From Candidatus Saccharimonadota bacterium (lineage in GTDB: Bacteria > Patescibacteriota > Saccharimonadia > Saccharimonadales > Saccharimonadaceae), in assembly GCA_028286365.1 (NCBI GenBank), contig JAQBRR010000001.1, positions 124,001 to 188,000 of the forward strand: a stretch of DNA of 64,000 bases, in the 5' to 3' direction. Numbering within the stretch: position 1 is the stretch's first letter; each line of letters starts with the position of its first letter. The notes under the pieces were generated by a model. That model had not been told where the DNA came from and made no database searches. It saw nothing but the letters and a program-made list of their open reading frames with translations. Positions 5,996 to 26,480 of this stretch are shown piece by piece. Made by a program: the position numbers and the translations under genes.

Positions 5996-6042
5996 GTGAG
6001 AGACTACACGGATAGTAGAGCCTAGAGAAAGTGGAGGATATC

Positions 6043-7901: not shown

Positions 7902-7968
7902 TATGTTAATTCCTTTCTTACGAATCTTCTTACTATTGTTATAGCAGATCCGCTTGTGTTTGTTAAGT

Positions 7969-8349
7969 TTATCCGAACGCTTTGAGCACCCAGTTAATGA
8001 TTGCGTACGCCGAGAAGGCAACAACAAGGCCAACAACAGCGTACAAAATCATATTCTTGGCACGTGTGATTGCTGCAGCTTCGCCCGATGATGTCACATA
8101 TATAAAACCAGCGATAATAATCACGATAACCGCCGCAAGCCCTAATAGAAACAACAATGTATTTACAACGGCACCTGTGATAGATCCCACATTATCATTC
8201 TGACTCTTACAGATAACGCTATCCTTATTGGCAGGATCGCTACATGTATCGCTAATTGCGCTAACAGCACCAACAGGTACCGCAAATGTCACGAGACCAA
8301 ATCCACCGACTAAGATTGCGGCTACAATGAGTTGTTTAATCTTGTTCAT
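7969..8349 (-). CDS. VirB2/TrbC-like pilin candidate 4
   Basis: A 126-residue protein with a signal peptide (MNKIKQLIVAAILVGGFGLV ... VPVGA), a loop with two cysteines (CSDPANKDSVIC), and two transmembrane helices separated by YVTSSGEAAAITRAKNMIL. GGGAGGATC lies upstream of ATG 8349. The start overlaps the stop of the preceding gene by 4 nt (ATGA), indicating coupled translation. It is a paralogue of the gene at 7500-7901. Assembly into a T4SS pilus is inference from topology and from the neighbouring VirB4/VirB6 genes. Confidence 0.82.
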   Translation of the reverse strand: MNKIKQLIVAAILVGGFGLVTFAVPVGAVSAISDTCSDPANKDSVICKSQNDNVGSITGAVVNTLLFLLGLAAVIVIIIAGFIYVTSSGEAAAITRAKNMILYAVVGLVVAFSAYAIINWVLKAFG

Positions 8350-8636
8350 TTGATCCTCCCGATAAAAAACCACGTTACGGCAAATGCTGATAAAATTACA
8401 ACGAGTCCTATAACCGAATAAAGGATAGTATTCCTAGCCTTCTTGATCGCCTCTGGTTCGCCACCATTCGTGACAAGTGTGAAACCTGAAATAATAATCA
8501 TAACAACGGCAATAATTCCTGCAATAAAGTAGGCAATATTAAGACCAGCCGCTAATACCTGATTGGCGCTTCCATTCGGAACGTTCGGGACGTCCGTAGA
8601 GGTTAGTAATGCTGCGAGAGAGGTGAATATACTCAT
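8346..8636 (-). CDS. VirB2/TrbC-like pilin candidate 3, without signal peptide
   Basis: The smallest paralogue (96 residues): a short N-terminus (MSIFTSLAALLTSTDVPNVP) followed by two hydrophobic helices around LVTNGGEPEAIKKARNTIL. No classical cleavable signal peptide is seen, and it lacks the cysteine loop of its neighbours. It overlaps both adjacent genes by 4 nt, so all three are translationally coupled. The gapped conservation with its neighbours (helix, Gly-Glu turn, KAR/AKN-IL, helix) supports a common origin. Confidence 0.8.
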   Translation of the reverse strand: MSIFTSLAALLTSTDVPNVPNGSANQVLAAGLNIAYFIAGIIAVVMIIISGFTLVTNGGEPEAIKKARNTILYSVIGLVVILSAFAVTWFFIGRIK

Positions 8637-9115
8637 GGGTTATGTATTAGTATACCCGATAGTAAGTTAATTACGGCAATGGATGCAATAGATATACCGA
8701 GACCAATTGTCGCATCAAGGATAGTCTTACGAGCTTTTGCGGCAGCGTCTGGACTACCCTGGCTAGTTAGGAACAAGAACCCACCCCACAGGATGAAACC
8801 TGCTGTTAGATAGCCGACAATCTGCAAGCCGATTTCAATACAGTTGAGCACAATATGCCAAATAAAGGGACTAAGCTCGCCGGACTTAGGTTGATTAATC
8901 ACGCATTCATACGTCCCGGGTGTTGTCTGCTTGACGTGAACGAGCCCACGATACCATGTTGGAAAAGTCAAAAAACTAGCCGAGCAATCAGAATCTTTGG
9001 ATGAGGAAGTAATTGTGGCAGCAAAGGTTATCTCAGGCGCCACAACCGCTACTAATGTTCCCGCTGACAGAACGCTCATACCTAATGCTAATGCGATTTT
9101 CTTAAATTTGTTCAT
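8633..9115 (-). CDS. VirB2/TrbC-like pilin candidate 2, with extended periplasmic loop
   Basis: A 160-residue protein with a signal peptide (MNKFKKIALALGMSVLSAGT ... TFAA). An unusually long extracytoplasmic region of about 55 residues holds two cysteines and an aromatic patch (FLTFPTWYRGLVHV). Two membrane helices follow, flanking FLTSQGSPDAAAKARKTIL. The turn and KARKTIL motif match the other pilin candidates. The larger loop could make it a specialised tip or adhesin subunit, which is speculation. It lies 2 nt after the stop of candidate 1. Confidence 0.8.
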   Translation of the reverse strand: MNKFKKIALALGMSVLSAGTLVAVVAPEITFAATITSSSKDSDCSASFLTFPTWYRGLVHVKQTTPGTYECVINQPKSGELSPFIWHIVLNCIEIGLQIVGYLTAGFILWGGFLFLTSQGSPDAAAKARKTILDATIGLGISIASIAVINLLSGILIHNP

Positions 9116-9117
9116 TA

Positions 9118-9543
9118 TTAGAATAACCCCCCTGGGATGATGAAATTTAGGAACGCAAACATTAGTGCATACGCAACAATACCAATAATTACGTTGCGAA
9201 TAAACTCGATAGCCTTCTTAGTCTGGTCTGCGTTACCCCCGGCACTTGTATACAGGATTGAACCGTAGACAATACCACCAACCGCCGCGATACCAACACC
9301 AGCAGTTAGAATATTAATTACCGTCAGAAGAAGTGACCACACCCCATTATTGGTGGTTCCGCCCTTTGAGACGTCAACATTATCACAGCTAATAATTGCA
9401 GTATCTACTGCACATCCGTTGTTACACTTAACTGTGCCGTTTGCGCAAACAGCTGATACCGAAAGAGGGGTTACAACTGCGAATATTCCAGTGATAAGTG
9501 CAATAACCAATATGAAGTTTTTAATTTTTTGTTTTATTGTCAT
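9118..9543 (-). CDS. VirB2/TrbC-like pilin candidate 1, first gene of the operon
   Basis: A 141-residue protein with a signal peptide (MTIKQKIKNFILVIALITG ... SVSA), a loop with four cysteines (CANGTVKCNNGC and ISC), and two helices around LYTSAGGNADQTKKAIEFI. ATG 9543 is preferred because the only longer in-frame start is TTG 9564 and the resulting seven extra residues would distort the signal peptide. No Shine-Dalgarno is visible for either, so the message may be nearly leaderless. It is divergent from the lipoprotein gene at 9678 across a 130-bp promoter gap. Confidence 0.8.
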   Translation of the reverse strand: MTIKQKIKNFILVIALITGIFAVVTPLSVSAVCANGTVKCNNGCAVDTAIISCDNVDVSKGGTTNNGVWSLLLTVINILTAGVGIAAVGGIVYGSILYTSAGGNADQTKKAIEFIRNVIIGIVAYALMFAFLNFIIPGGLF

Positions 9544-9677
9544 GCTATCTATAAAATACGACAAACATCGATTATCTGCAAGTATTCATTGGTCGGGTAT
9601 TGACTTTATTAACCATAAATGCTATAGTTCGCATATACACAAATGTTGAATTAAGTAATTTAATATAAGGAATCATT

Positions 9678-10643
9678 ATGTTACCAACAAGCAACGAGCA
9701 CACTATCGAAACACCAATTGACACAACAACCGATCAAGACGTAGATTATTCTGCCTTTAATGGGGGTTATGAGTATAGCGAACCAGAGTACGTTCCTAAA
9801 GGAGCTAAATCTATTGACGTTGATCCTGAAACTATTGCTGAAATCGAAGCTGCTGCCGGTAATCTACTTGATACGGATCCAAATGTACGTAAAAAATTCG
9901 CAAGACTACTTGCTACAGCCGGTGGAGCTGTTGCCCTATCATTCCTTCTAGCGGCCTGCGGAACAAACGCTACGCCATCTCCAACTCCTACCGTGAGCGC
10001 ATCAGACGTACCTACCCCTATAGAGACACAGGTACCTAATACGGCGAATCTATTCACTGGAGAATTAGCCACAACTCCTGATCAAATTAGCAAATATAGT
10101 AATATGTCTTTTGCTGACTTCAAGGCATTACAACCATCAGAACGAACGGCTTTCTTCCTAGATAAGGCCAAAGACCCACAAAAAGGTTTGGCTGCATACG
10201 CTAAACTATACACATACGTTTCAGGTAATAGTCTTGATGCATTACCTGCGACCATTTCAGTCGACAACACCCCTCAAGAGATTCTATCGATCGCAACGTA
10301 TGGTCAGCGTTTCGCAATCTCCTTTGATCAGCCTACTGCTGAAAAACTTCTTGCAGGAACAATACCTGACCTTACGTCTAATTCTTATCGAACTATGGAT
10401 GGTGTTTTGCAACAATATGCACCGATTAGCGCCCGAGTACTGGGTGCAGAGAGTACAGATGGACATGGAGTTCTTGCTGGTACCTTTGTAAGTGCAAGCG
10501 AGAAGAAGAAAGATGCCAGTGGCACCTATATTGATATAACTACTCAACTTCAAGATGGTAGTAAAGTGACTGCTCCATACTACTACGTTACAAATGGTAC
10601 ATCGGGTATGTGGGAAATGAGCGGAAGCGAAGCTGTTAAATAA
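9678..10643 (+). CDS. Atypical lipoprotein with long cytoplasmic N-terminal extension
   Basis: A 321-residue protein of unknown function. Residues 1-70 are acidic and hydrophilic. A basic stretch (VRKKFARLL) then precedes a hydrophobic segment ending in LLAACG, a clear lipobox with its cysteine near residue 94. After a Pro/Thr-rich linker, residues 125-321 form a soluble extracytoplasmic domain. Normal lipoproteins begin a few residues before the signal, and no in-frame start exists close to the lipobox here; AAGGAA precedes ATG 9678. Either the N-terminus stays in the cytoplasm and the cysteine is not processed, or a long leader is tolerated. Its position between pilins and VirB6 suggests a role in the apparatus. 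A terminator follows. Confidence 0.8.
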   Translation: MLPTSNEHTIETPIDTTTDQDVDYSAFNGGYEYSEPEYVPKGAKSIDVDPETIAEIEAAAGNLLDTDPNVRKKFARLLATAGGAVALSFLLAACGTNATPSPTPTVSASDVPTPIETQVPNTANLFTGELATTPDQISKYSNMSFADFKALQPSERTAFFLDKAKDPQKGLAAYAKLYTYVSGNSLDALPATISVDNTPQEILSIATYGQRFAISFDQPTAEKLLAGTIPDLTSNSYRTMDGVLQQYAPISARVLGAESTDGHGVLAGTFVSASEKKKDASGTYIDITTQLQDGSKVTAPYYYVTNGTSGMWEMSGSEAVK

Positions 10644-10658
10644 GCTTGCGATAAAATA

Positions 10659-10687
10659 TAAAAGCCCTCTACTATAGAGGGCTTTTA
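10659..10687 (+). terminator. Terminator after the lipoprotein gene
   Basis: TAAAAGCCCTCT pairs with AGAGGGCTTTTA around ACTAT, ending in a T-rich arm. It separates the lipoprotein transcript from the VirB6-like gene, whose own TATACT -10 box lies at 10697-10702. Confidence 0.85.
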
Positions 10688-10728
10688 TTGTTGGCTTATA
10701 CTAGTTGTGCTTAAATAGTCGTAGCATT

Positions 10729-13700
10729 ATGCTACGTCGTTTATCTTTACCTTTCAAGCTAAAGCCACTCTTTATTACGGGAGTGGTCCTATTATCGTTT
10801 GTAGCGAGCGCAGCAACATCACTATTACCAACATCAACCGTCTCTGCAAAAGCAGGTACGTATGCCGCCGAAACAGACCTATCAACCGTCATGAAGGCGA
10901 TTAAGTATATAAATGCTATCGCTTATTGTGTTGATAGTAATGGGCCAGGAGGTTTCAAGACCACAATAGCGGGGGATACTATTAGCAATGGACCCCGTTG
11001 GTGGGTATATGATAGTCCACTTGCTGCAACTTTAACTATAGGAAAGCAGCTTGATCAATGGGGTGATAAGAATGGGATTGCAAAGTGTAACGGAGAAACT
11101 GACAGCGAACCTGGATGGATTAACGATGCCCTAACATTCTTTGGCATTAATGTCAGAAATAGCGATAAAGGCAACCGTGACAAAAGCCTGGAAGAGCTTG
11201 GATATAAATGTACTAAAAGTGGTACGGACATATCTTGTGAAAACGATAACGCAAATGCTGACTCTTCAACTAAGGGCAGCATATTATACATATTGCGTAA
11301 TCTACCGTATTTACATGGAGCTAATTTAGTAAACCTCACTGCGACGGATCCAAAAATAATGGCAGCATCGTATTATGCTGCCATGAGTGACTATACAACT
11401 CTTTGTAAAGCAACGGCCGATGGCGGAACAAGTAATTTGACTAATATCTGGGTAGTTGATAAGGGCACTATTACTAAGCAGCAGTGGGGAGGAGGCAAGT
11501 CATCAATTGATGCGGGATTAGGTGAGGTTGCGTTGACGGCAAATAATCCAGGTGATGGAAATGGCTGGATAGGCTCTAACTCCATAGAAAATGGCTGTAC
11601 AAATATCGCAAACTACTTAAACAAAGACTATGCGACGGCATATTTAAAATTCATAACGACGAGTGCTTGCAGTACGCAGTTTACTGACTCCGCTCAAGCC
11701 GCAGCCTGCGTTGAGGGATCTAACCATTTAACTGATCTGGGTTACTGTACTACTCATTACCAAACTGGCTACCAGGGCTCAACATTAGTGAATAAAGTTC
11801 CCGAACGTTTGGCGTGTTATATAGGTCAAGGAAACCAAGGTGAAGAAGATTGTGTCGTAAAGTTAAAATACGATCTTAATGCACCCCCTGATGCAAGTAC
11901 GAACCCAACTGGAATTAGCAACCAATTACTATTACAGGCATGCATAAAAGGTGCGCAAAATAGCGATACAACCTTCTGTGCAACGCAGTATGGTGACGCC
12001 TACCAGGGCTCAACGCTCGTCAATAATGCAGCTTTACGTTTGGCATGCGTAGACGGGCAGAAGTATCCTGCAGCGGGGGGGCTTACTACAGGTTCAGCGA
12101 TCTGCGTACCTGGTTCAACAGCTGCAGCCTGCGTAGTCAAAGCTGACACTAAGACTTCCTGCGTAGTCGATGGCATTGGCTGGTTAGTGTGTCCTTTAAT
12201 GAACGCACTCGGTGGGCTGAATGATGCGATGTACGGCTGGGTACAGAGCGTATTAGTTCTAAACCCTTTAACACAAACTGACAGTAGCGGAACAGCTACG
12301 CCCCAATATCAAAATTGGTCAAATATTCGTAATATCGCAAACGTAATGCTGGTTATCGGGTTCTTGGCTATTATATTCTCGCAGATTAGCAGTATCGGCA
12401 TTAGTAATTATGGCGTCAAGAAAATGCTACCACGTATTATAATGATCGCTATTGCTATCAACTTGTCGTGGACTATAATGACCCTTTCGGTTGATGTAGT
12501 GAATATCATAGGAGTTGGATTACATAGTCTCCTTGACGCAACAGCTGTTAATGCCACGGCAGATAATTTAAATACAGCAAGTACAGTTAACGCCTTGCTC
12601 ACTGGCGCCGGAACGCTAGCGGTTGGTGGAATAACTGCAATTATTGCGTTACCTGCAGCAGAAATAGGGCTAGGAACGTTAGTGCTCCTCGCATTGCCAT
12701 TCATCCTGGGGGCGGCCCTCGCATTATTTGCAGCAGTCGCAACATTATTTGTCAGGAATGCACTCATAATTGTGCTGGTTATTATTTCGCCTGTAGCAAT
12801 TGCAGCAGCACTGCTACCTAACACCGAACAGTACTTCAAGAGCTGGCGCAAAATGTTCATACAGATGCTGATGCTATTTCCTATGGCGGCATTATTATTC
12901 GCTGGTTGTAAATTTGCTGCATACGTTGTCCTAACCTCCAATCAACCGATGGCTATCATCGCAGCACTATTTATTATGGCTGCACCTCTTGGGATGTTGC
13001 CATGGCTCGCACGTTCATCAGGCGGCATTATGGCTGCAGTTGGCGGACGATTGCAGGGTATTGCGAAGAGTAGTCAGGGCGCATTAAAAAGAGGCCTGCA
13101 GCCTCGTGTTGATGCATCAAAGAGTACGTATGGATCCGGTAAGAAAAACTGGTGGGGCGTAACAAGAGGTAAGCTAACGCCAGCCCTCAACCCAGATGGA
13201 ACACCTAAGATGAGAAACGGAAAGCCTGTTACCTACCGCGCCATGCCAGTAGGCAAAAACGGAAAACCAAAAACTACCATGGGTCAGAAATGGGCTAATT
13301 CTGGACAAAGAGTCGCTCAAAGAGACAAGAATAACAAACGAGTGATTATTGAGAACTGGAAACAGATTGGTCTAAATGGTGAGGGCAGAGGTGCACGAAA
13401 AACTAGAAGCCTGCTCGACGAAGAACAGACTATAGGGCTACAAGAAAAATCTACCTCAGCTCAATACTCGGCGCGTCTTGAAGAACGACAACTTAACGCG
13501 AGTACACCTGAACACCTGATAACGAAAAATCTGGAAGACGCCGAGGCAACGAGTAAAGGTTTCCAGGGCAGGCTTAAGCAAGAACAAGCTGAACGCATTA
13601 GGGACGGCGCTGGAAATACGGTAGCAGGCTCTATAGGCGCCGAAGGTATTTTGAACCTGCGCGATGTTAGTCAACAGGCCTATGTTGCCGAGGCAGGTGC

Positions 13701-15597
13701 TGCTGCTGCAGAGGCAGAAAATACTGAGCTCAACATCAACTCGAAAGCCGCTGATGACTTTATCCAGATTGAGCACGAAGCAAAGGAAGGTATCAAAGTG
13801 AGAGAAACTGAACAGGAAGCTGACTTTAAGGAACACCAGAATGAGCGTGCGAGACAAAATACACTCGACCGCGAGACTGACTCTACCGTAGAACTTGACA
13901 ACACATTAAAGCAGAACGCTCAGGATCGTCGAGTTGAGACAAATGAAGCCGAGATTAAAGAGCGACAGGAAACAGTTGCGCATAGCGATGAAGAACTTGA
14001 GGCGTTAGAAGAACGCAAGCAAAAAGCAGAAGAAGGAGTTACAACACTACACACAGCTGAAGAGGCGAAACTTGCTGCCCGACGATCGCCAACAGGCGGG
14101 CCACTAGATGCCGATGGCAATCCGACAGCTGGTGACCTGTATGGACTAACGAGGCAGCAAGAAGAAAGCAAACTAGAGAAGGAAACGTCCGAGGCTGAGC
14201 AGAAAAAAGCATTTGGAGATCGGCTAGGTGAGGCCGATACCAGCCGAGGAGGCCTGCAAGAATTAGCCGAAAGAAAAGCTGCACTTGAAGAGGCAGCAGC
14301 AGGCGGAAGCGCTCGTGCAAAAGCAAGGATTGACGCCGCCAAAGCAGGAATTAGAGACCCAGTAACCGGGGAACTTAAAGAGATCCCTGGTATGGATGAA
14401 GACGTTCGTGAACAACTAGCACAGGCTGGTCGAGAGCAAGCGATTGCAGCACGTAACAGTTCGCTCGCAGGAGGTATTGCTGAGGTTGTCCGTGGTAAAG
14501 AAGTTAACTACGAGCCAGACGGGGAACTTGCTCGCGACATGGCAGGTATCGACTTAGGCCTGTCACCCAACACGAACCTTGAAGCAGCGAATGCAGCAAG
14601 GGTCACGGAAGCCGACTTAGAAGCCGACAGAAAAGCATACGACGATTTACACAAACGAAGAGGTCTTAGCTCCACGCAGCTCTATAGTGATGTACTTGGC
14701 GTACCGGATCCGGCGGGTGTCATCACAATCAGGTCCAGTGATGACATGCCACTAGCCGAAGAACTTTCTGCAGTAGGACAGATTATACAATTCGGTGGTG
14801 CTGATGACCAAGATAACTTATTCAATTATAGTTCAGAGTTAACGAGGGCTGCTATACAGGCTGAGAAAGATTCTGCGAACGTGCAGGCTGATTCGACCGC
14901 TTCAGAAGAGGCTAAGAAAAAAGCAAGAGATGATGCTGCGGCAGCAAGGTTTAGGTCAAAAACAATCCACTCTGCAATGCAGCGTGGATGGGCTCAGTTC
15001 GGAGGACAAAGGCCAATGCAATACGGTGGATCAGTCGAGCAGACCCTGGCTCAAGATACTGAAACTCGAACTAAGAACCAAATTCAAGCAGATAGGCTTG
15101 GTGGCGGTAAATATGATCATACCGTTGGTACTCAAAATATCGATCGTATAAATGCCCTTAGGAGACAGATCAAATCTTACGAAACAAATCCCGGACAACT
15201 CACCACTGACTTTACGGAAGCCTACAGAGTTGGTGCAGAGTACACTGCGACTCAAGTTGAGGGCATACCATCTGGTACTCCTGCGTGGAACACTAGAGTT
15301 GCTGAGCTTATAGCGAAAAAGGTTACTGCAGCACCTGACAACTTAGCTATGTTTGTAACACAGCTAGACAAGGCACTGGATGACCCTAGATCTCCTGCAT
15401 TATCACCAGAAAAAAGAGCAGCCCTAACAGATACTCGTGAATCCCTGTTAACGGTATTAGATACTGCTGGTATTTCGAGACCCGAAGTTCCTATGGTGGA
15501 TCCAACATCTCAGAAGCAACTCTTTAATCCTGATGGCAGCATGCAAATGGGACCATATCGACGAAGAACCCCAAGCGAATATAACCCACAAGGCTAG
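10729..15597 (+). CDS. Giant VirB6/TrbL-like T4SS membrane protein with Cys-rich ectodomain and coiled-coil tail
   Basis: This 1622-residue protein has an N-terminal hydrophobic segment (about residues 12-32). A secreted Cys-rich region (about 45-510) contains two related units built on YQGSTLVN followed by RLAC (about residues 345-365 and 425-445). A multispanning block of six or so helices (about 527-764) with a VirB6/TrbL-like character includes NALIIVLVIISPVAIAAALL. It is followed by about 860 hydrophilic residues, very rich in Ala, Glu, Gln and Arg, predicted coiled coil (about 885-1290). VirB6 normally forms the inner-membrane channel of a T4SS; the ecto- and endo-domains here are much larger than in classical systems. 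ATG 10729 gives the natural signal segment; GTG 10705 is possible. The C-terminal tail could be a scaffold. It heads the PrgI-VirB4 gene run. Confidence 0.82.
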   Translation: MLRRLSLPFKLKPLFITGVVLLSFVASAATSLLPTSTVSAKAGTYAAETDLSTVMKAIKYINAIAYCVDSNGPGGFKTTIAGDTISNGPRWWVYDSPLAATLTIGKQLDQWGDKNGIAKCNGETDSEPGWINDALTFFGINVRNSDKGNRDKSLEELGYKCTKSGTDISCENDNANADSSTKGSILYILRNLPYLHGANLVNLTATDPKIMAASYYAAMSDYTTLCKATADGGTSNLTNIWVVDKGTITKQQWGGGKSSIDAGLGEVALTANNPGDGNGWIGSNSIENGCTNIANYLNKDYATAYLKFITTSACSTQFTDSAQAAACVEGSNHLTDLGYCTTHYQTGYQGSTLVNKVPERLACYIGQGNQGEEDCVVKLKYDLNAPPDASTNPTGISNQLLLQACIKGAQNSDTTFCATQYGDAYQGSTLVNNAALRLACVDGQKYPAAGGLTTGSAICVPGSTAAACVVKADTKTSCVVDGIGWLVCPLMNALGGLNDAMYGWVQSVLVLNPLTQTDSSGTATPQYQNWSNIRNIANVMLVIGFLAIIFSQISSIGISNYGVKKMLPRIIMIAIAINLSWTIMTLSVDVVNIIGVGLHSLLDATAVNATADNLNTASTVNALLTGAGTLAVGGITAIIALPAAEIGLGTLVLLALPFILGAALALFAAVATLFVRNALIIVLVIISPVAIAAALLPNTEQYFKSWRKMFIQMLMLFPMAALLFAGCKFAAYVVLTSNQPMAIIAALFIMAAPLGMLPWLARSSGGIMAAVGGRLQGIAKSSQGALKRGLQPRVDASKSTYGSGKKNWWGVTRGKLTPALNPDGTPKMRNGKPVTYRAMPVGKNGKPKTTMGQKWANSGQRVAQRDKNNKRVIIENWKQIGLNGEGRGARKTRSLLDEEQTIGLQEKSTSAQYSARLEERQLNASTPEHLITKNLEDAEATSKGFQGRLKQEQAERIRDGAGNTVAGSIGAEGILNLRDVSQQAYVAEAGAAAAEAENTELNINSKAADDFIQIEHEAKEGIKVRETEQEADFKEHQNERARQNTLDRETDSTVELDNTLKQNAQDRRVETNEAEIKERQETVAHSDEELEALEERKQKAEEGVTTLHTAEEAKLAARRSPTGGPLDADGNPTAGDLYGLTRQQEESKLEKETSEAEQKKAFGDRLGEADTSRGGLQELAERKAALEEAAAGGSARAKARIDAAKAGIRDPVTGELKEIPGMDEDVREQLAQAGREQAIAARNSSLAGGIAEVVRGKEVNYEPDGELARDMAGIDLGLSPNTNLEAANAARVTEADLEADRKAYDDLHKRRGLSSTQLYSDVLGVPDPAGVITIRSSDDMPLAEELSAVGQIIQFGGADDQDNLFNYSSELTRAAIQAEKDSANVQADSTASEEAKKKARDDAAAARFRSKTIHSAMQRGWAQFGGQRPMQYGGSVEQTLAQDTETRTKNQIQADRLGGGKYDHTVGTQNIDRINALRRQIKSYETNPGQLTTDFTEAYRVGAEYTATQVEGIPSGTPAWNTRVAELIAKKVTAAPDNLAMFVTQLDKALDDPRSPALSPEKRAALTDTRESLLTVLDTAGISRPEVPMVDPTSQKQLFNPDGSMQMGPYRRRTPSEYNPQG

Positions 15598-15650
15598 AGT
15601 TATTAAGGCAAGATGTTACTCAAATATACGTCTGTTATACTATAAGCACT

Positions 15651-16643
15651 ATGGCGCAGTATAAAGTACCCCAGGACGTAGAGGCGGACGACAAGCTCAT
15701 TGGTCCGTTTAGCTTTCGTCAGTTCGTGTACCTCATTATCGTCGCGTTATCGGGTGCTGCTGCCTGGGCCTTGTATCAATTATTCCCGCTACTAATCATC
15801 ATTCCGTTACCTATCATTGTGTTCTTTGGCGCACTTGCATTACCACTTCGTAAGGACCAGCCGATGGAAGTATACCTCGCAGCGATGGTATCGTTTTACC
15901 TCAAGCCTCATAGACGTTTATGGGATCCCGATGGAATTGATTCACTAATTGAAATCACCGTTCCAAAAGTCGTCGAGATACAACGTACCAAGGATATATC
16001 ACAAGGTGACGCACAACAGAGATTTGGCTACTTGGCTGAGATTGTCGATAGCCAAGGTTGGGCAATTCGTGGACAAACTAATGGTACCGTTCAGGCGCCA
16101 AATAGTGCCATGAATACGGAGGCATATTACTCTGCACAGCAGGCAGAGGATATCCTAGACAGCAACTACGGCGTCGCGCAGTCGCTCGATTATATGATCA
16201 GCCAGACAGATAATCGCAGGCGTCAGGAGATGATGGATCGCATGCGTGCAATACCAGAAGAGCCCGCTATCGTACCTGAACCAGCAACGACTACAGCTGT
16301 AGCTGCACCGACAGCCACCTCTAGTCCTGTCGTTACTCCAGCGCCAGCTGCTGCCCCACAAACACCTGCACAGTCTGGTGTAAAACCTGCACCAAACCCT
16401 TTTAATTTCTTTGCGTCACAACCTTCCTTAACTACTGATTCAAACAATCCATACCCTCCCAATATGCAACAAAAAGTTATCCAGCCACTTGACCCCACAA
16501 ACACTAGCGGAAAGGTGGTATCAGCTGATATAATGAACCTTGCAAACGATGCCCAATTATCTATCGAGACAATTGCCCATGAAGCCAATCGTATCAACCA
16601 ACGTGATGGTACAAGCGGTGAGGTCATAGTCTCTCTACGATAA
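15651..16643 (+). CDS. prgI: PrgI/VirB3-like T4SS inner-membrane protein
   Basis: A 330-residue protein. Residues 1-85 match the PrgI family: KVPQDVEADDKLIGPFSFRQ, two adjacent membrane helices (about 28-46 and 48-65), and PMEVYLAAMVSFYLKPHRRLWDPDG. This family replaces VirB3 in Gram-positive-type T4SSs and recruits VirB4 to the membrane. The remaining 230 residues are cytoplasmic, with a Pro/Ala-rich linker (about 200-250) and a C-terminal helix. TATACT at 15636-15641 ends 9 nt before ATG 15651, so a promoter with almost no leader can drive the prgI-virB4 genes. The VirB4 N-terminal gene follows after 55 nt. Confidence 0.87.
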   Translation: MAQYKVPQDVEADDKLIGPFSFRQFVYLIIVALSGAAAWALYQLFPLLIIIPLPIIVFFGALALPLRKDQPMEVYLAAMVSFYLKPHRRLWDPDGIDSLIEITVPKVVEIQRTKDISQGDAQQRFGYLAEIVDSQGWAIRGQTNGTVQAPNSAMNTEAYYSAQQAEDILDSNYGVAQSLDYMISQTDNRRRQEMMDRMRAIPEEPAIVPEPATTTAVAAPTATSSPVVTPAPAAAPQTPAQSGVKPAPNPFNFFASQPSLTTDSNNPYPPNMQQKVIQPLDPTNTSGKVVSADIMNLANDAQLSIETIAHEANRINQRDGTSGEVIVSLR

Positions 16644-16698
16644 CGGTTCACCAGAGGTGAAATGGCATTAATAATGAGGGAGTGGGAAGCTTAGTCAA

Positions 16699-17559
16699 AT
16701 GCCACCAAACAATCAATTTGGTCCTGTTGCCCCAATCATATCGAGTTCGGGCCCCGTTCCTCCTGTCATGCCTCCTGCAATGACACCTGTTACGAGTGGG
16801 CCAGTACCAGCTGGACAACCAGTAGCAAAGCCTGTCGTTAAAAACGCCAACTCAACCCAGAATACACTTCTATTTTCTGAGATCCGCGACGACCTTGTCA
16901 TTATGGCTGACGGATCATTTAGGGCAGTCGTGGTATGCAAGTCAATCAACTTTGACCTGATGAGCGCAACCGAACGTGAAGGCGTTGAATTTAGTTATCA
17001 AAATTTTCTAAACTCACTCAATCATCCTGTTCAGATCTTGATTCGCTCACAACGCGTTGATATAGGACCGTATATCGACCTATTAGGCGGCATCCGCAAG
17101 AACCAGGACAATATGTTACTGGGTGTATTGATGGATGATTACATCAACTTTATCGACGTATTGTCCCAGCAGGCAAATATCATGAACAAATCGTTCTTTA
17201 TCGCGATTCCGTATTATCCTAACGGCGATGCAGCGGGCTTGATCGAGCAGAGTAAGGGCTTCTTCACTAAATTATTCGCACCGCCAAAAAACACAGCAAC
17301 TAAGATCGACTCAGCCGCATATCAAAAAGCCAAGGACGAGTTAAGCACTCGCGTCGAAGGAGTTACATCTGGACTTTTTCAGTTGGGTGTACAAAGTGTA
17401 CAGTTAAATACCAAGGAACTTGGAGAGCTGTATTACAACTCGTATAATCCCGATACGGCAGTGCGCGAACCACTTGGTAACTTTGAGAACATTACAGCTA
17501 CATACGTTAAAAAAGGTGTCGGTGATGCCATTGCAGCTGAGCTAGGGAAGACTACCTAA
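16699..17559 (+). CDS. VirB4 N-terminal-domain protein (split VirB4, first part)
   Basis: A 286-residue protein with a Pro-rich N-terminus (1-45) and then an alpha/beta domain starting NTLLFSEIRDDLVIMADGSF, with YQNFLNSLNHPVQILIRSQ and SFFIAIPYYP. It resembles the N-terminal, non-ATPase part of VirB4/TraC proteins, which contacts VirB3/PrgI. It has no Walker motifs. Its TAA stop overlaps the ATG of the ATPase gene by one base, so the two halves are made together. In most T4SSs these are one polypeptide. The family call is from pattern and position. Confidence 0.75.
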   Translation: MPPNNQFGPVAPIISSSGPVPPVMPPAMTPVTSGPVPAGQPVAKPVVKNANSTQNTLLFSEIRDDLVIMADGSFRAVVVCKSINFDLMSATEREGVEFSYQNFLNSLNHPVQILIRSQRVDIGPYIDLLGGIRKNQDNMLLGVLMDDYINFIDVLSQQANIMNKSFFIAIPYYPNGDAAGLIEQSKGFFTKLFAPPKNTATKIDSAAYQKAKDELSTRVEGVTSGLFQLGVQSVQLNTKELGELYYNSYNPDTAVREPLGNFENITATYVKKGVGDAIAAELGKTT

Positions 17560-19430
17560 TGGCAAAGAAACCACAGCTAGACGCTGCAGCGCAGGCCCAG
17601 GCTTTAGAACAAAGCCAGGTTGAACAAGCATTCTTGAAGGGAATGACTACTTTGCGCGACCTGATTGCACCAAGTAGTATCGAAATCCATTCATCGTATT
17701 TTCGCCTTGGTACCAAATATGGACGAACTATTTATATTTACGGCTATCCACGCGAAATTTATACCGGTTGGCTCAGCTCACTGATTAATATTGATGAAGT
17801 TATTGATGTTAGTATGTATATTTACCCTGTTGATACACAGGTAGTGCTAAATAACCTACGTAAAAAAGTAACCCAGCTAGAAGCAACGACTTCAATCAGT
17901 AACGAAAAGGGCAAAGTACGTGACCCAGGTGTTGAAGCGGCTATTAGCGACGCTGAAGAGCTACGTGACCAACTGCAGGTAGGGGCCGAGCGTTTCTTCC
18001 GTTTTGGTCTGTACGTCACGATGTTCGCTGATAGTCTCGATGAGTTAAGTTTTGTACAACATAAGATCGAAACAATGTTCGGTCAGCAGTTGATCTTTAG
18101 TAAGGTTGCAAGCGGTCAACAAGAGCAAGGTATGAACAGCTCGATTCCTCAAATGACCGACCAGTTGCAAATTCGCCGCAATATGAATACGGGTGCAATC
18201 AGTACGAGCTTCCCGTTCACCAGTGCCGATCTGACACAGGAAAAGGGCGTATTGTACGGCATCAACATGCACAATAATGGTCTGGTTATTTTCGATCGTT
18301 TTTCTCTTGAGAACGCCAATATGGTGGTCTTTGCAAAGTCTGGTGCAGGTAAGTCATTTACCGTTAAGCTTGAGGCACTCCGTAGCATGATGACAGGCGC
18401 AGAGGTGATTATTATCGATCCAGAAAACGAATACCAGAAACTTGCCGATGCGGTAGGTGGTAGTTATATTCGACTGAGCCTTAATGCCGATACTCGTATT
18501 AATCCGTTCGATCTCCCTAGGGTTATCGATAGCGACGAGGCCGATGATGCCCTGCGCGCCAACCTCGTAACACTCCATGGACTATTCCGACTCATGCTCG
18601 GCGGTACTCAGGTGACCGCTGCAGGCGTACCGATGTCATCATTAAATCCAGCAGAGGAAGCAGACCTTGACCAGGCACTTATCGACACTTACGCACGCGC
18701 TGGTATTACAAGTGACCCACTCACACACAACTCTCCTCCGCCAACAATCGCGGATCTATACGACACACTCCTCCATATGGGAGGTAGTGGGCCATCACTT
18801 GCGCAGCGTCTCCGTAAATATACAACTGGAACGTTCGCGGGAATTTTCTCCCAGCAATCTAATATAGACATTAACAATGCTATGGTTGTGTTCAATATTC
18901 GTGACCTCGAGGATGAACTGCGGCCTGTTGCTATGTATATTGTCTTGTCGCACATTTGGAACATTACCAGGACTGATCAGAAGAAACGCATGTTGATTGT
19001 TGATGAGGCATGGCAACTGATGAAGTACGATGACTCAGCTAACTTCTTGTTCTCGCTCGCAAAGCGTGCACGTAAATATTACCTAGGCCTGACAACGATT
19101 ACTCAGGACGTTGAAGACTTTATGGGTAGTAAGATGGGCCGCGCGATCGTTGCCAACAGTTCAATGCAGCTACTCCTCAAACAATCCTCAAGTGCCGTTG
19201 ACGTCCTATCTGACGTATTCAAGCTTACCGAAGAGGAAAAGAAGCGTCTTGCCAACTTCCCAATTGGACAGGGCTTGTTCTTTGCCGGGCAAAACCATGT
19301 CCATATTCAGATTGTTGCAAGTGAGACTGAACAAGAACTCATTACGACTAACCCGCAGGCAATCGCCCAAGAAGTTATCGAAGAAGAAGCCCAAGCAGCA
19401 TCGACTATCAGCCCAGGTTCGGCAGTCTAG
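17559..19430 (+). CDS. virB4: VirB4-family T4SS ATPase (ATPase part)
   Basis: A 623-residue ATPase. Residues 1-235 include a second alpha/beta region, and the motor domain follows with Walker A AKSGAGKSFTVK near 265-276, IIIDPENEYQKLADAVGG, Walker B RMLIVDEAWQLM near 477-488, and a conserved Gln in LTTITQDVEDF. VirB4 hexamers energise pilus assembly and substrate transfer at the inner membrane. It starts on the last base of the preceding gene's stop. No VirD4 coupling ATPase or VirB11 is nearby, so this is the only visible motor of the system. Confidence 0.93.
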   Translation: MAKKPQLDAAAQAQALEQSQVEQAFLKGMTTLRDLIAPSSIEIHSSYFRLGTKYGRTIYIYGYPREIYTGWLSSLINIDEVIDVSMYIYPVDTQVVLNNLRKKVTQLEATTSISNEKGKVRDPGVEAAISDAEELRDQLQVGAERFFRFGLYVTMFADSLDELSFVQHKIETMFGQQLIFSKVASGQQEQGMNSSIPQMTDQLQIRRNMNTGAISTSFPFTSADLTQEKGVLYGINMHNNGLVIFDRFSLENANMVVFAKSGAGKSFTVKLEALRSMMTGAEVIIIDPENEYQKLADAVGGSYIRLSLNADTRINPFDLPRVIDSDEADDALRANLVTLHGLFRLMLGGTQVTAAGVPMSSLNPAEEADLDQALIDTYARAGITSDPLTHNSPPPTIADLYDTLLHMGGSGPSLAQRLRKYTTGTFAGIFSQQSNIDINNAMVVFNIRDLEDELRPVAMYIVLSHIWNITRTDQKKRMLIVDEAWQLMKYDDSANFLFSLAKRARKYYLGLTTITQDVEDFMGSKMGRAIVANSSMQLLLKQSSSAVDVLSDVFKLTEEEKKRLANFPIGQGLFFAGQNHVHIQIVASETEQELITTNPQAIAQEVIEEEAQAASTISPGSAV

Positions 19431-19449
19431 GGTATAATGTGGGGTAATT

Positions 19450-22011
19450 ATGGCTCTGAGAACTCCTGATAAGACAGACGACAAGCTCAATCCCGGACAG
19501 GCCGATTACAATCGCAAGTTTAATGACATAGCCAACCGCGAAGAAGCGGGTACTTTTGGTGATATTGCAAAAAACTACAACAAAACAGCAGATCCATCTC
19601 AGGAAAACGCCAATATCGCAAAAGCCCACAGTAAAGAGACGAACCCCGCAGGAGATTGGGATACAAAGCTCAGCGCAGCAAAAGACATAGCTCTAGCGGC
19701 TGCAGGTGGTAAACCCAAGGGGAGTAAAAGTCCTCTCGTCGCAATCCTTATAATCATTTTTGGTGGTGGATTTAGTTTTGGCGGACTATTCGGTGCGTTC
19801 AGTCTGCTGCCAATCGACGTTGTTGCACAGTTTTTCAACAAGGAGGATGCTCAAAGTACGAGTTTTAGTATCCGTACAGACAAAATCATTAATTCGAAGA
19901 TATCAAAGGACGTCACGAGCGGATACTGCAGTCCTGATAAATCCCTACTCTGTAAATACGAAAAACCCTCAAATAAGCTACTGAATGCACTCGAAAAAGA
20001 GGGAGTTCAAGCTTTCGATAAAGCCGGTAATGTCATAAAGGGGACTGGCATACTTCCGAATGCGAGACCTGATCACTTTACTTTCAAAGGCGAGAAGATT
20101 AATGCTACGGATTTTGCATCGAGACTAGCGAGTGATCCTGAGTTTAGAGCGGCCTTTCATAATGCTTATACACCTCGTTTTGTCAGCTTTGCAGATAATA
20201 TATTTAAATCAATAAAGACGCGGTTTGGTTTTACTGTTGATGACAAAAATGCAAAAGCCAAGAGTAGTGAAGAGCTTTCAAAAAATCTTGACCAGGCATC
20301 AAAGGGACCTGAGACAGGCGCATCGGCCGCGGCGAAAGAGGGCGCAACTGCAGCTGATGGAGTCGCCGAAACACTTATTGAAGATGCTGCAGCGAAAGAA
20401 GTTAAAGGAGTAGCCTCATCTGGTAAAGGTAATGCTGTTGGTCTTATTGCAGGAGTGGCGTGTGGTATTGGTGACATACCAGGTTTAATCGTTAGTACCG
20501 CGAGAGCGTACCAAATGGCACAACTTGTAACCTATGCGGTGACTGTAGTGACGTCAATTGAGGCATGGAAGGCAAACCAAGCAACGCCCGACGAGATAAC
20601 CTCACTTGGAAGTCTTCTAACAACAGTAGTTGCCGGTAAATCAGCTATGGATTCATTCGGTATGAAAAATGTACTGTTTGGCGATACCACAACAACTGAC
20701 ACTAGTTGGAAGAACTTCTCACCTGGCGGCAGCGTCGCTGATGGTATCGCGGGTCAAATAGCACAATTTACGAGCAGCCCGATCAAAAAGGATGTTTGCT
20801 CTGTAGCAACAAATCCAGCAACAGGTGCGGCAATTGACGCCGCAACTGCGGATACAGGTGTTGGTGTGGTTGTTGCAGCGGCAAACCTTCTTGGAGGATT
20901 ACTAGGAAGCCTTGCACTAGAGCAGTGGGGGCCAACCCTTGTTAAGTATGCGGTCGGCTTTATACCACCTGGTGTTATGCAATCAGTTTTGAAGTTCTTC
21001 TTAGGTGATCTAACCCAAGGATTGGTCGGACAAGATGTCGGTAATGCACTAACAAGCGGCTTAGTCCACTTGATGGGTCAAACTGCAAACAAAGGAGGCA
21101 ATATGGCGCTTACTATAAAGCAGAAGCTTGCCTATGATAACGCAACCGCACAGGTTAACCTTGCCTACGCCCAGGAAGACCGTGCAACACATAGCCCACT
21201 CGATGCAACAAACCCTAATACGTTCCTCGGTAGCCTTGTCGGCGGATTGTTACCATATTACTCGAGTACCGGATCGCTAGGTGGCGTCATATCTTCACTT
21301 GGTAGTATTGTTACAGGTTCACTTGGGTCACTATTCAAACAAGCGAGTGCTGGTGCAGTTGCAGACGACGGATCAGAATATACACTATGTCAGGATCCCG
21401 CTATAACTGGCTCAGGTACGGGTACTGATGCGTTAGCGGCTGGTCCTTTTTGCGATATTCAGTATGGCATTCCACCTGATTATCTCAATAAAGATCCGGA
21501 AGTCGTGGCGAATGACCTAATAGCAAGTGGTGATATAAATCCTACGACAGGCGATCCAATTGTAAAACCAGATCCCGTCATATCTCTTACTGACACATCC
21601 TCGCAAGCAAAGAGCAGTTTAAGTGGGTGGACCAGTTTATGTGGTGACGGATCAACCGCACATGCCACTGACTGTGCTTTAACTCCCGCTAATATCACAG
21701 CAAACCCTAATATTGTTGATTACGCTCTGTATACAATTGACCACCGTGTCCAGACAACAATGGATGGCGAGGACCAAACACTAGACCCACCAGCCACAGA
21801 CCCATCAAGCAGCTCAACATCAACTAGTACACCTGCGGCAACAACCACAACCGACACGACAGCTCCGTCTACCGATACAACTACAACAACCCCAAGTACT
21901 CCCGCAGCTTTTATTCCTCAGACTAAAAGCACAGCCAGTTACGCAATTAATTTGTCTAATTTGTTTGCGTATATCCTTCCTCCAAAGAAATTCGAGGGAA
22001 TAACAATATGA
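19450..22011 (+). CDS. Large membrane-anchored T4SS-associated protein, unknown function
   Basis: An 853-residue protein with a hydrophilic N-terminus of about 90 residues and one strong membrane segment (about 96-118, SPLVAILIIIFGGGFSFGGL). It then has a long predicted extracytoplasmic region with Ala/Gly-rich amphipathic stretches, several cysteines, further hydrophobic patches near 330-380 and 470-520, and a Ser/Thr-rich tail (about 775-825). No family is recognised. TATAAT at 19433-19438 lies 11 nt before ATG 19450, so it can be transcribed from its own promoter as well as with virB4. It overlaps the hydrolase gene by 4 nt. A structural ectodomain or substrate of the T4SS would fit. Confidence 0.8.
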   Translation: MALRTPDKTDDKLNPGQADYNRKFNDIANREEAGTFGDIAKNYNKTADPSQENANIAKAHSKETNPAGDWDTKLSAAKDIALAAAGGKPKGSKSPLVAILIIIFGGGFSFGGLFGAFSLLPIDVVAQFFNKEDAQSTSFSIRTDKIINSKISKDVTSGYCSPDKSLLCKYEKPSNKLLNALEKEGVQAFDKAGNVIKGTGILPNARPDHFTFKGEKINATDFASRLASDPEFRAAFHNAYTPRFVSFADNIFKSIKTRFGFTVDDKNAKAKSSEELSKNLDQASKGPETGASAAAKEGATAADGVAETLIEDAAAKEVKGVASSGKGNAVGLIAGVACGIGDIPGLIVSTARAYQMAQLVTYAVTVVTSIEAWKANQATPDEITSLGSLLTTVVAGKSAMDSFGMKNVLFGDTTTTDTSWKNFSPGGSVADGIAGQIAQFTSSPIKKDVCSVATNPATGAAIDAATADTGVGVVVAAANLLGGLLGSLALEQWGPTLVKYAVGFIPPGVMQSVLKFFLGDLTQGLVGQDVGNALTSGLVHLMGQTANKGGNMALTIKQKLAYDNATAQVNLAYAQEDRATHSPLDATNPNTFLGSLVGGLLPYYSSTGSLGGVISSLGSIVTGSLGSLFKQASAGAVADDGSEYTLCQDPAITGSGTGTDALAAGPFCDIQYGIPPDYLNKDPEVVANDLIASGDINPTTGDPIVKPDPVISLTDTSSQAKSSLSGWTSLCGDGSTAHATDCALTPANITANPNIVDYALYTIDHRVQTTMDGEDQTLDPPATDPSSSSTSTSTPAATTTTDTTAPSTDTTTTTPSTPAAFIPQTKSTASYAINLSNLFAYILPPKKFEGITI

Positions 22012-23393
22012 TATCGTTGGGATCATTCCGTAAGCTTGGTTTTCGTATTGTTGGTGGTTTTATTATTATAATTTCTGTAGTCCAGCCTTTGGACGTATTC
22101 GCAGCCGCGACATATGACCCGGATTTTTTTTCGAAAAATGACATTAATCTCTATAACCCAACAGATGTTGGCTGTTCAACTAGTACTAACATAGCACCCG
22201 CCGGACTTTCTGGTAGTGACAACGAGCAAAAAATTTATAATTTCTGGATAGGCAGTGGACTAAGCCCTGCACAGGCAAGCGGCATAACAGGAAGTATACA
22301 GGCCGAAAGTGGATTTAGCCCATTCAGACAGGAGACGACTCAAACCTGGGATGGTGGTGGATATGGCATTGCCCAATTTACAGGTGGTCAGCGTGTTGCC
22401 GTAACAGGTATTTTAAAAGCAAACCTTAAAGATGTATTTACACAGTATTACGTAGACATATATGGAAGAGGTGTAACCCAGGCCAATGGGTTTGTCCCTG
22501 TGGGTATACCTATCCCTATAAATGATAGCTTTTTACTTAATGAGTTAACTTACCTATCAACTTACGCTAGTAGTTTTGCTCCAAGTACAATACACCAGCG
22601 CACAGATGGACTCACGAAAGATTATGGTATCACTATACAAAAAGATCAAAAATTGCTCGATTTCATAAAAACATTAACGTCGGCTGGTGATGTAGCCAAA
22701 GCATGGACCTACCTATACGAGTACCCTGGGGACATAAAAGCAACTGCTGCTGCCAGAGCAGCAAATGCTAATACTGTCCTTGCCAAATATTCGGCTCAAT
22801 CTGACGGGTCTAGTTGTACGACAGGTGGTGTAATCAGTTGTCCGGGGAGTACGAGTACATCAATATCAAAAGGTGATGGCTCAATAGCAGCAATAATCAG
22901 TACCGCAAAGTGTATAACCATACAACCACCGGCTGGTTCAAATAGTTCGAGAACTCTAGGCTACAAAGCTTGTAGTGATGGCGGATGTACAAAAGGTCCT
23001 CCTACGCCAGCAAATTACGCTGCTGCACGGAGGCAATTTAAGACTGCTGGGCCGAGAGGTACGAACGATGCCTTTGATACATATGGGGCTGATTGCGGTA
23101 ATTTTGTTTCAACCGTCATGCGTATGTCTGGAGCGGATCCTAATTATCCGATCAGCGGTGTTATTAATATGTATAACTATATGTCAGCTCATCCCGAAAA
23201 ATATAAAAAAATTACGACAACATCTAGCACTAAGGATATGGTCGGGGGTGATATAGTTACAGAAGTTGGCAATGGGCACATTATTCTATATACAGGTGGT
23301 GGACAAATAGCGCAGGCTTCTCAGGCTCAGCAAATGCCCGTACAAGAACCTGCCTGGGGTATGAGCGGTGTTGTTTGGAGGATGATAAAATAA
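22008..23393 (+). CDS. Two-domain peptidoglycan hydrolase (phage-tail-lysozyme plus CHAP/NlpC-like), VirB1-like role
   Basis: A 461-residue secreted protein with an N-terminal signal or anchor (about 12-32, ending VFAAATYD). A lysozyme-like domain (about 72-260) starts QKIYNFWIGSGLSPAQASGI, includes IQAESGFSP with a candidate catalytic Glu, and continues into GGGYGIAQFTGG; this is the pattern of phage tail lysozymes. After a linker, residues 320-461 resemble a CHAP/NlpC cysteine peptidase, with YGADCGNFVSTVMR (Cys) and GNGHIILYTGGG (His). Such enzymes open the wall for T4SS assembly. In an epibiont, action on a host wall is an alternative. The start ATG lies in the ATGA overlap with the preceding gene. 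Confidence 0.82.
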   Translation: MISLGSFRKLGFRIVGGFIIIISVVQPLDVFAAATYDPDFFSKNDINLYNPTDVGCSTSTNIAPAGLSGSDNEQKIYNFWIGSGLSPAQASGITGSIQAESGFSPFRQETTQTWDGGGYGIAQFTGGQRVAVTGILKANLKDVFTQYYVDIYGRGVTQANGFVPVGIPIPINDSFLLNELTYLSTYASSFAPSTIHQRTDGLTKDYGITIQKDQKLLDFIKTLTSAGDVAKAWTYLYEYPGDIKATAAARAANANTVLAKYSAQSDGSSCTTGGVISCPGSTSTSISKGDGSIAAIISTAKCITIQPPAGSNSSRTLGYKACSDGGCTKGPPTPANYAAARRQFKTAGPRGTNDAFDTYGADCGNFVSTVMRMSGADPNYPISGVINMYNYMSAHPEKYKKITTTSSTKDMVGGDIVTEVGNGHIILYTGGGQIAQASQAQQMPVQEPAWGMSGVVWRMIK

Positions 23394-24046
23394 TGACAGA
23401 TTTTTATAACACAGAACCTATCAAAGTTGTCTCGAAGTATAACAAACGAAGAATATGGTTGATTGCATTTGCTTTTTTTGTTGTTTTTGTCGGTGTTTTG
23501 TTAATATCTGGTTACTATATTTGGTATAACAATACATACAACGCTACTATATCTCTGTCGTACGCACCCGTAAGTGCCGCTGCAACAATGGATGGTAAAC
23601 CGATTAACGCGGGTGATACAAAAGTAGAGCCAGGTTCGTATACTATTGTCGTCAAAAAATCAGGTTTTACTGATAACACTTCAACTGTTGTTGCAAAAAA
23701 AGATCAGTCTACCCCAGTTATTATTGCACTTACGCCGAACAGCCCTTCTACGGCGAGTTGGTATAGTAATAACCCTCAAGATCAAAAAATCAATGAAGCT
23801 ATTGGAGCAAAAAATGCAGCAAGTTCTGCGGTAGAGCTTCAAGACACATTCCCGGTTGCTAATGTTTTGCCACTTACTGGCCCATCATACCAGGCCGATT
23901 ATGGTACATCGCCAACTAAAAAAGGTCAGTTTGCAATATTCGTGACCTATTATACAACTACTGGTCAGCAAGACGCACGAGATGCCCTTGTGTCATTAGG
24001 TTACAACCCGAGCGATTATGAGATTATTTATATAAATGGTATGTAG
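23393..24046 (+). CDS. Membrane-anchored PEGA-domain protein
   Basis: A 217-residue protein with one membrane helix (about 25-47, WLIAFAFFVVFVGVLLISGYY). A PEGA-like beta domain (about 55-110) carries AAATMDGKPINAGDTKVEPGSYTIVVKKSGF, shown here only by its key YTIVVKKSGF part. The C-terminal domain of about 100 residues has a YETDYG-like aromatic patch and resembles small binding domains. GGAGG at 23378-23382 precedes ATG 23393, whose first base is the last base of the hydrolase stop. It is the last gene of the plus-strand T4SS run and converges on recF. PEGA domains often bind cell-wall components; the role here is unknown. Confidence 0.75.
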   Translation: MTDFYNTEPIKVVSKYNKRRIWLIAFAFFVVFVGVLLISGYYIWYNNTYNATISLSYAPVSAAATMDGKPINAGDTKVEPGSYTIVVKKSGFTDNTSTVVAKKDQSTPVIIALTPNSPSTASWYSNNPQDQKINEAIGAKNAASSAVELQDTFPVANVLPLTGPSYQADYGTSPTKKGQFAIFVTYYTTTGQQDARDALVSLGYNPSDYEIIYINGM

Positions 24047-24049
24047 TAT

Positions 24050-25093
24050 TTAGAGTGTTATGTGTTTGTAGTTCTTCTTACCAGGAACAACGTCAGTACT
24101 TGTAATAATAATCTGATGGGCTCGAATAGTGTCACTGAGTGCTTTTTGGCGAGTTGCGTCAAGTTCAGAGAATACATCGTCCAGTAATATAAGTGGTGGA
24201 TTGCCGGTCATTTTTTCTATAATATCAACTTCTAGGAATTTAAGTGCTAGTACGATCGTCCGAACTTCACCACGTGAGGCAGACGACACAGCAGGGGAGT
24301 TATTAAATTTAAAAACAACGTCGTGCCTATGCGGACCTATACTCGTACTGCCTAATATTTTGTCACGTTCACTATTTGCGTGGAGTTCGTTTAAAACTTT
24401 TTGTTTAATGTCACCAATAAACGTGTGTGAGTAGTGAATTGAAACTGTATCTTTTACCCCTGCGATAGAGTCGTATGCTTCATTTAATTTGGTGTTTATT
24501 TCTTCAATAAAGGCAATTCGTTGTTCAATAATATACGCCCCGTATTCACTGAGAGCCACATCCCATACAAAAAGCTCATCATTATTAACAACCTGCTTTT
24601 TAAGTAAGTTATTACGCTGCCTGAGGGCTCGTTCATATTTATGTAGTATCGACGAATACAGAGGGTTTAATTGGCTAATAAAGCGATCTATGAATTGGCG
24701 ACGTCGAACAGGAGAACCGTTTAATAATCGAAGATCATCGGGTTCAAATAAAACGATTGGGTATTTATGCTTTTGAGGTAATCTGTACGTTGTAATTCCA
24801 TCAACAATAAATTGTTTTTTACTTTGTTGTTTTTCTGGATTAAAACTAATTGTTCGTTTTGTTTCATTATCTAGAACAATATCGATACGCCACCATGGGG
24901 AATCCGTGCGGAGTAGATCACTATCGCTTCCTCGGAATGAACTGCCCTGTAGAGCGATATAGATAGCCTCCACAAGAGATGTCTTACCACTTCCGTTCTG
25001 TCCGGTAATAACCGTTACTTTTTGTGATAAGTCTGTTGTAAAGCTTTGGTGTGAGCGAATGTTTTGGATTGATAGTTTTGTAATCGCCACCAT
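24050..25093 (-). CDS. recF: DNA replication and repair protein RecF
   Basis: A 347-residue SMC-like ATPase with the N-terminal ITKLSIQNIRSHQSF and Walker A ITGQNGSGKTSLVEAIYIAL (about residues 29-48). The ABC signature region is SSASRGEVRTIVLALKFLE, and Walker B is PLILLDDVFSELDATRQKAL near 300-320. RecF loads RecA at gapped DNA with RecO/RecR. It follows dnaN by 7 nt in the conserved dnaA-dnaN-recF order. Length is slightly below the usual 360-370 residues. Confidence 0.95.
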   Translation of the reverse strand: MVAITKLSIQNIRSHQSFTTDLSQKVTVITGQNGSGKTSLVEAIYIALQGSSFRGSDSDLLRTDSPWWRIDIVLDNETKRTISFNPEKQQSKKQFIVDGITTYRLPQKHKYPIVLFEPDDLRLLNGSPVRRRQFIDRFISQLNPLYSSILHKYERALRQRNNLLKKQVVNNDELFVWDVALSEYGAYIIEQRIAFIEEINTKLNEAYDSIAGVKDTVSIHYSHTFIGDIKQKVLNELHANSERDKILGSTSIGPHRHDVVFKFNNSPAVSSASRGEVRTIVLALKFLEVDIIEKMTGNPPLILLDDVFSELDATRQKALSDTIRAHQIIITSTDVVPGKKNYKHITL

Positions 25094-25100
25094 TATCGTA

Positions 25101-26201: not shown

Positions 26202-26480
26202 TTATTATTACCTTTCTTTCAAATTCTCTTTAATGGACTTAATAGTAGTGCCTGTGGATTGTGGGTATAAGGATGATTTAACAGATATAAAAACGGGTTT
26301 ACTGAAGTGGAAAACCATGTAGGTTGTAGGGGGAAAGTTGGTTGGATAAATACCACTTTTCCGACCAACAGCACATAGCTACGAACACTAATTTTATTAA
26401 TAGGGGATAGTAAAACACTCTTAACCCCACCACCTATTCGCTGCTTGTTCACATTTTTTACCCATGCAAATAACATAAAT
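26202..26480. promoter_or_regulatory. dnaA-dnaN intergenic region with weak DnaA-box-like motifs
   Basis: These 279 bp hold no convincing gene; a 100-codon frame across them has unlikely composition. TGTGGATTG and TGTGGGTATAA near 26255-26270 and a TTGTTCACA near 26447 resemble degenerate DnaA boxes. The region must hold the dnaN promoter and could add to origin function. Confidence 0.4.

Follow-up and report, generated by a model that had tools for sequence, protein, structure and literature searches.

The operon at positions 9678 to 24046 of the window, by which we mean the whole analysed stretch of 64,000 nucleotides, is an ordinary member of the type IV secretion system (T4SS) already published for Patescibacteria and not a new kind of system. 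Judged from its sequence, it is very probably the chromosomal T4SS of this clade, of the monoderm type, derived from MPF-FATA and kept near oriC. The published machine comprises VirB4, TrsD, PrgI, VirB6 and a VirB2 array, is mostly relaxase-free and often lies near dnaA (Quinonero-Coronel 2025, PMC12102498); it has been further described in a 2025 review (PMC12857230) and in PMC11665869 and PMC12592800. In Southlakia epibionticum, the equivalent genes SEML1_0006-0019 were essential for epibiotic growth and contained no recognisable coupling or relaxase proteins (Wang 2023, PMC10633639). The preliminary description had been titled as a minimal T4SS-like machine without relaxase, coupling ATPase or outer-membrane core, and this title restates published work: the missing relaxase, the non-adjacent coupling protein, the pilin array and the origin-proximal place are all known.

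The source genome (850,738 bases in two contigs, rated 99.98% complete) carried one copy of VirB4 of the origin-proximal type. The interval held eight plus-strand ORFs that nearly touch and form one operon, in the following order:

9678-10643, plus strand: lipoprotein-like or bitopic slot protein, 321 aa (topology and position conserved in relatives)
10705-15597, plus strand: VirB6-like channel protein, 1630 aa (orthologues match PF04610; 88 BLAST-labelled ORFs in 80 loci)
15651-16643, plus strand: PrgI (VirB3-like), 330 aa (PF12666, E = 7e-13)
16699-17559, plus strand: TrsD, 286 aa, a relative of the VirB4 N-terminal region (NF041427 in 23 of 23 orthologues)
17559-19430, plus strand: VirB4 assembly ATPase, 623 aa (NF045971 over cut-off; PF19044, E = 2e-28)
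19450-22011, plus strand: ectodomain protein, 853 aa (orthologues in nearly all loci)
22008-23393, plus strand: wall hydrolase with lysozyme and CHAP/NlpC-like parts, 461 aa (PF18013, 1.3e-20; C-terminal Amidase_6, 0.013, and NLPC_P60, 0.033)
23375-24046, plus strand: PEGA-domain membrane protein, 223 aa (PF08308, E = 2.4e-4, just over cut-off)

The VirB4 product scored 372.6 bits against NCBIfam NF045971 (cut-off 325), the best curated family for it was CD1110 (MPF-FATA), above cut-off, and its near relatives were overwhelmingly from Saccharibacteria. VirB4 had previously been read as split. We considered a split or frameshifted gene and rejected it: the 286-aa ORF upstream is TrsD in every relative aligned, and since TrsD is a known separate protein, remotely related to the N-terminal portion of VirB4 (PMC12102498), VirB4 is not broken. 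Many TrsD orthologues matched VirB4 models too, the window copy near profile positions 234-280 of 894.

The VirB6-like protein, for which an alternative ATG start is possible at 10729, was predicted to have a large extracytoplasmic N-terminal region, a polytopic core at about residues 485-810 and a long soluble C-terminal region. The conserved core contains approximately six predicted transmembrane segments. Alone, the 1630-aa window protein gave no Pfam match, and its identification was supported through its orthologues, as 6 of the 22 that were aligned matched TrbL/VirB6 (PF04610; best 6e-5). Comparison of the VirB6 and TrsD profiles with PDB sequences gave no credible match. The VirB6-like giant, PrgI, the large ectodomain protein and the PEGA-domain protein named in the preliminary description were all recovered. 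The two-domain wall hydrolase held up for its lysozyme domain (Phage_lysozyme2, about 1e-20), which follows a signal or transmembrane segment, while the C-terminal CHAP/NlpC-like Cys-His domain was weakly supported.

The slot protein preceding VirB6 is fast evolving, with a cytoplasmic tail, one hydrophobic segment ending in LLAAC and an extracytoplasmic part of about 220 aa. Most relatives carry a strongly diverged bitopic or lipoprotein gene in this slot, several of them with a lipobox Cys. It is possibly a candidate for the subunit in the VirB8 position; none of the operon proteins matched a VirB8 family, a Pfam search with ten slot proteins yielded nothing credible, and the structure model was uninformative (pLDDT 39). 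The ectodomain protein consists of a cytoplasmic tail, a transmembrane segment at about residues 96-114, an extracytoplasmic body and a Ser/Thr/Pro-rich tail; its fold model (pLDDT 48, pTM 0.51) matched no PDB entry at E < 1. Among relatives, the C-terminus of this protein is swapped between a VanY carboxypeptidase (7 of 20), an M23 endopeptidase (Peptidase_M23, 4 of 20) and no peptidase (alignment A2), and the window copy has neither. The gene was absent from three loci of one genus (L124-L126).

Divergently from the operon lies an array of five T4SS pilin genes, three of them above the Pfam cut-off and two just under it:

7500-8036, minus strand: T4SS pilin 1 (VirB2-like), 178-aa ORF (PF18895, E = 2e-13, over cut-off)
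7969-8373, minus strand: T4SS pilin 2, 134 aa (PF18895, E = 1.3e-10)
8346-8636, minus strand: T4SS pilin 3, 96 aa (PF18895, E = 1.5e-10)
8633-9115, minus strand: T4SS pilin 4, 160 aa (PF18895, E = 1.2e-4, below cut-off; same array position in relatives)
9118-9564, minus strand: T4SS pilin 5, 148 aa (PF18895, E = 4.4e-4, below cut-off; the operon-proximal pilin in many relatives)

The pilins that had been counted among the visible parts are real and belong to the T4SS, but they lie outside 9678-24046, at 7500-9564 on the minus strand. The divergent gap also contains a candidate operon promoter:

9600-9628, plus strand: TTGACT-17-TATAGT with TG before the -10, a consensus match only

A promoter scan of the region found as many sites as in shuffles, with no excess. 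Beyond the array are hsp20 (6031-6510, plus strand) and comF (5266-5934, minus strand). An IS200/Y1-type transposase gene (6668-7285, plus strand) is placed between hsp20 and the pilins, and none of the 114 related loci compared has a counterpart. At 1714-2581 (plus strand), about 7 kb away from the T4SS operon, there is a pair encoding an HTH_3 regulator and an M78 (ImmA/IrrE-like) protease, a type of pair that controls some mobile elements.

On its other side, the operon is directly followed by recF, dnaN and dnaA at 24050-28067. The same gene block was found in 80 named Saccharibacteria loci and in about 105 of the 119 genomes of the order, which indicates that the T4SS locus is inherited with the chromosome. 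In the synteny sample (34 loci from the order plus the 80 named ones, almost all carrying the label Saccharibacteria or unnamed bacterium), the conserved order ran comF, hsp20 and pilins (minus strand), then slot protein, VirB6, PrgI, TrsD, VirB4, ectodomain protein, hydrolase, PEGA protein, recF, dnaN and dnaA. Among the 80 named loci, TrsD was immediately upstream of VirB4 in all 75 that could be tested. VirB6 lay upstream of VirB4 in 52 of 52 loci and was duplicated in 18 of these, a large ORF came next in 66 of 67, and recF/dnaN/dnaA followed downstream in 55 of 60. In about 40 loci, with some genomes counted in two collections, homologues of comF and hsp20 bordered the block on its pilin side; comF near virB4 has been singled out for class ABY1 (PMC12102498). 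The conserved block order and the adjoining recF-dnaN-dnaA agree with the earlier proposal that this envelope machine close to the origin is inherited vertically and is not on a mobile element. One locus from a genome of the same genus (G099, L114:12668-18154) has some six or seven genes for cytoplasmic enzymes (methyltransferases, a reductase and others) between the pilins and VirB6.

Median identity to the window copy fell from 85% for VirB4 to 66% for TrsD, 51% for PrgI, 36% for VirB6 and 25% for the ectodomain protein, a drop from the cytoplasm outward that would be expected if the machine is exposed and faces the host. VirB4 relatives were present in 108 of the 119 genomes, two of which (G025 and G083) had mainly the second T4SS type described below. 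VirB4, TrsD and pilins were all missing from eight genomes (including G019, G031 and G062), three of the eight being about 98% complete. These absences may be real losses, with assembly gaps as another possibility, and the system may therefore not be indispensable everywhere. Three more genomes lacked VirB4 and TrsD only, probably through assembly gaps.

With regard to missing parts, no VirD4, VirB11 or relaxase was found within the operon, and Pfam and NCBIfam models identified no VirB7/9/10 outer-membrane core or VirB11 family among its proteins. An outer-membrane core is not expected in a monoderm, so its absence here is no surprise. The term minimal is to be used with caution, since the machine has pilins and probably also an envelope subunit of bitopic or lipoprotein type. 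The absence of a coupling ATPase applied to the operon and not to the cell, as two unlinked VirD4/TraD-type ATPases, both with coupling-protein domains over Pfam cut-offs, are encoded elsewhere in the genome (the neighbouring topA and gyrA/gyrB were identified from their translated sequences):

L009:9004-11655, contig 2: VirD4/TraD-type ATPase, 883 aa, adjoining a C39-peptidase gene and topA
L010:9115-11928, contig 1: VirD4/TraD-type ATPase, 937 aa, near gyrA/gyrB

At least one VirD4-type protein was found in 116 of the 119 genomes, including all eleven without VirB4, which argues that VirD4 is not strictly tied to the T4SS. Four T2SSE-family ATPases are also encoded in the genome beyond the limits of the window, which would fit type IV pili. 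The relaxase search covered five Pfam families (PF03432, PF13814, PF03389, PF01076 and PF08751), none of which had a match anywhere in the source genome, in line with the reported lack of a relaxase.

A second VirB4, approximately 36-42% identical to the main one, was found in 15 of the 119 genomes. In G104, the second operon (L041:5165-12979) encodes a pilin, a pilin-VirB6 fusion, PrgI, a TrsD-like protein, VirB4, a CHAP hydrolase and an adjacent VirD4 of 858 aa, and inspection by eye recognised no relaxase at this locus. VirD4 was nearby in 9 of 13 second-T4SS loci (L041 and L042-L053), and along most of its length the second-system VirD4 shared 28-29% identity with each of the two VirD4s of the source genome. 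In G051, the second T4SS is next to dnaA, on the side opposite the main system. An apparent diversity-generating retroelement adjoins the second T4SS at L041:1237-4404. It comprises a reverse transcriptase and a type IV pilin-like protein that ends in an FGE-sulfatase/C-type-lectin-like part, and the variable end of this protein occurs again as a near repeat.

How these parts would work together can be sketched as follows. VirB4 and TrsD, a separate partner resembling the VirB4 N-terminal domain, would dock at the membrane via PrgI and drive assembly, with VirB6 as the presumed membrane channel. The lysozyme-like hydrolase, together with the wall-peptidase tails of the ectodomain protein in relatives, could open the peptidoglycan, and the VirB2-like pilins would form a surface pilus or conduit that touches the host bacterium. 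The fast-evolving lipoprotein and ectodomain proteins probably sit outside. The assembled machine would span the epibiont envelope where it meets the host, and its job would be epibiont-host contact.

The machine most likely moves a non-conjugative substrate, and we favour protein export somewhat over import. That the substrate is protein sent outward to the host has a little under an even chance of being right. It is a fairly unlikely but serious alternative that the machine takes in host-derived macromolecules such as DNA, or nucleotides, assisted on the inner side by VirD4-like ATPases or ComF. The lack of a relaxase among the five families in the source genome and the conservation of comF beside the pilin end would fit such a role, as would the lack of nucleotide synthesis in Patescibacteria, for which uptake has been proposed (PMC11665869). 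However, the operon has no ComEC-like protein or import receptor, comEC is dispensable in S. epibionticum where the T4SS is essential (PMC12857230), and MPF-FATA relatives export. The stricter version, a reversed relaxase-free T4SS that takes in host nucleic acids or building blocks and in which the conserved VirD4-type ATPases or comF serve uptake, seems improbable; if true, it would explain why a nutrient-dependent epibiont needs the machine. Similarly improbable is a role in attachment alone, in which VirB4 and VirB6 just assemble a VirB2-like pilus that binds the epibiont to its host and nothing is transferred. The five-gene pilin array, with 2-11 pilins in arrays of other members (PMC12102498), would suit this, as would an operon without a coupling ATPase and the retention of VirD4 in genomes lacking VirB4. 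However, type IV pili already serve adhesion in Saccharibacteria (PMC12857230, PMC11665869), and the wall hydrolases and large channel protein suggest a conduit.

A conjugative element, whether an ICE or a plasmid remnant with its own transfer genes, was considered and rejected as very unlikely. Homology of the MPF-FATA genes to conjugation genes, the sporadic occurrence in the order of a related second T4SS with adjacent VirD4, and Replic_Relax-family genes in 23 of the 119 genomes speak for it. Against it stand the lack of any recognised relaxase of the five Pfam families in the source genome, the conserved syntenic place by dnaA and a GC content of the locus close to that of the window (45.6% vs 42.9%). 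It had been pointed out before that a relaxase and VirD4 set elsewhere, together with variable presence of the locus among strains, would indicate such an element; we looked for both and found that only VirD4 occurs elsewhere and that the locus is conserved.

Among Patescibacteria, one species has been screened, and the T4SS is essential in it. Our analysis sharpens its part list, with VirD4 present but unlinked, TrsD in place of a split VirB4, and interchangeable wall-peptidase tails, and the second system with its own VirD4 offers a possible natural comparison.

Among known systems, the ComB DNA-uptake T4SS of Helicobacter pylori likewise has T4SS parts without a relaxase and is a proposed precedent for uptake (PMC11665869), but it is a diderm system, unlike the locus described here. 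The MPF-FATA systems (pGO1 trs, pCF10 prg, CTn2 and the mollicute ICE) share the CD1110-family VirB4, TrsD, PrgI and the two-domain wall hydrolase with our locus and, as monoderm conjugation systems, also have no outer-membrane core; here, in contrast to them, no relaxase was found, VirD4 is elsewhere on the chromosome, and there is a pilin array and a fixed chromosomal place. S. epibionticum ML1 (SEML1_0006-0019, PMC10633639) and Nanosynbacter lyticus TM7x share VirB4, TrsD, PrgI, VirB6 and the VirB2 pilin array, the lysozyme/peptidase genes just downstream of virB4, and the lack of a relaxase and of an adjacent coupling protein. Compared to ML1, the locus has five pilins instead of the six given in the review, and its ectodomain protein has no peptidase tail; no essential difference between the two was found.
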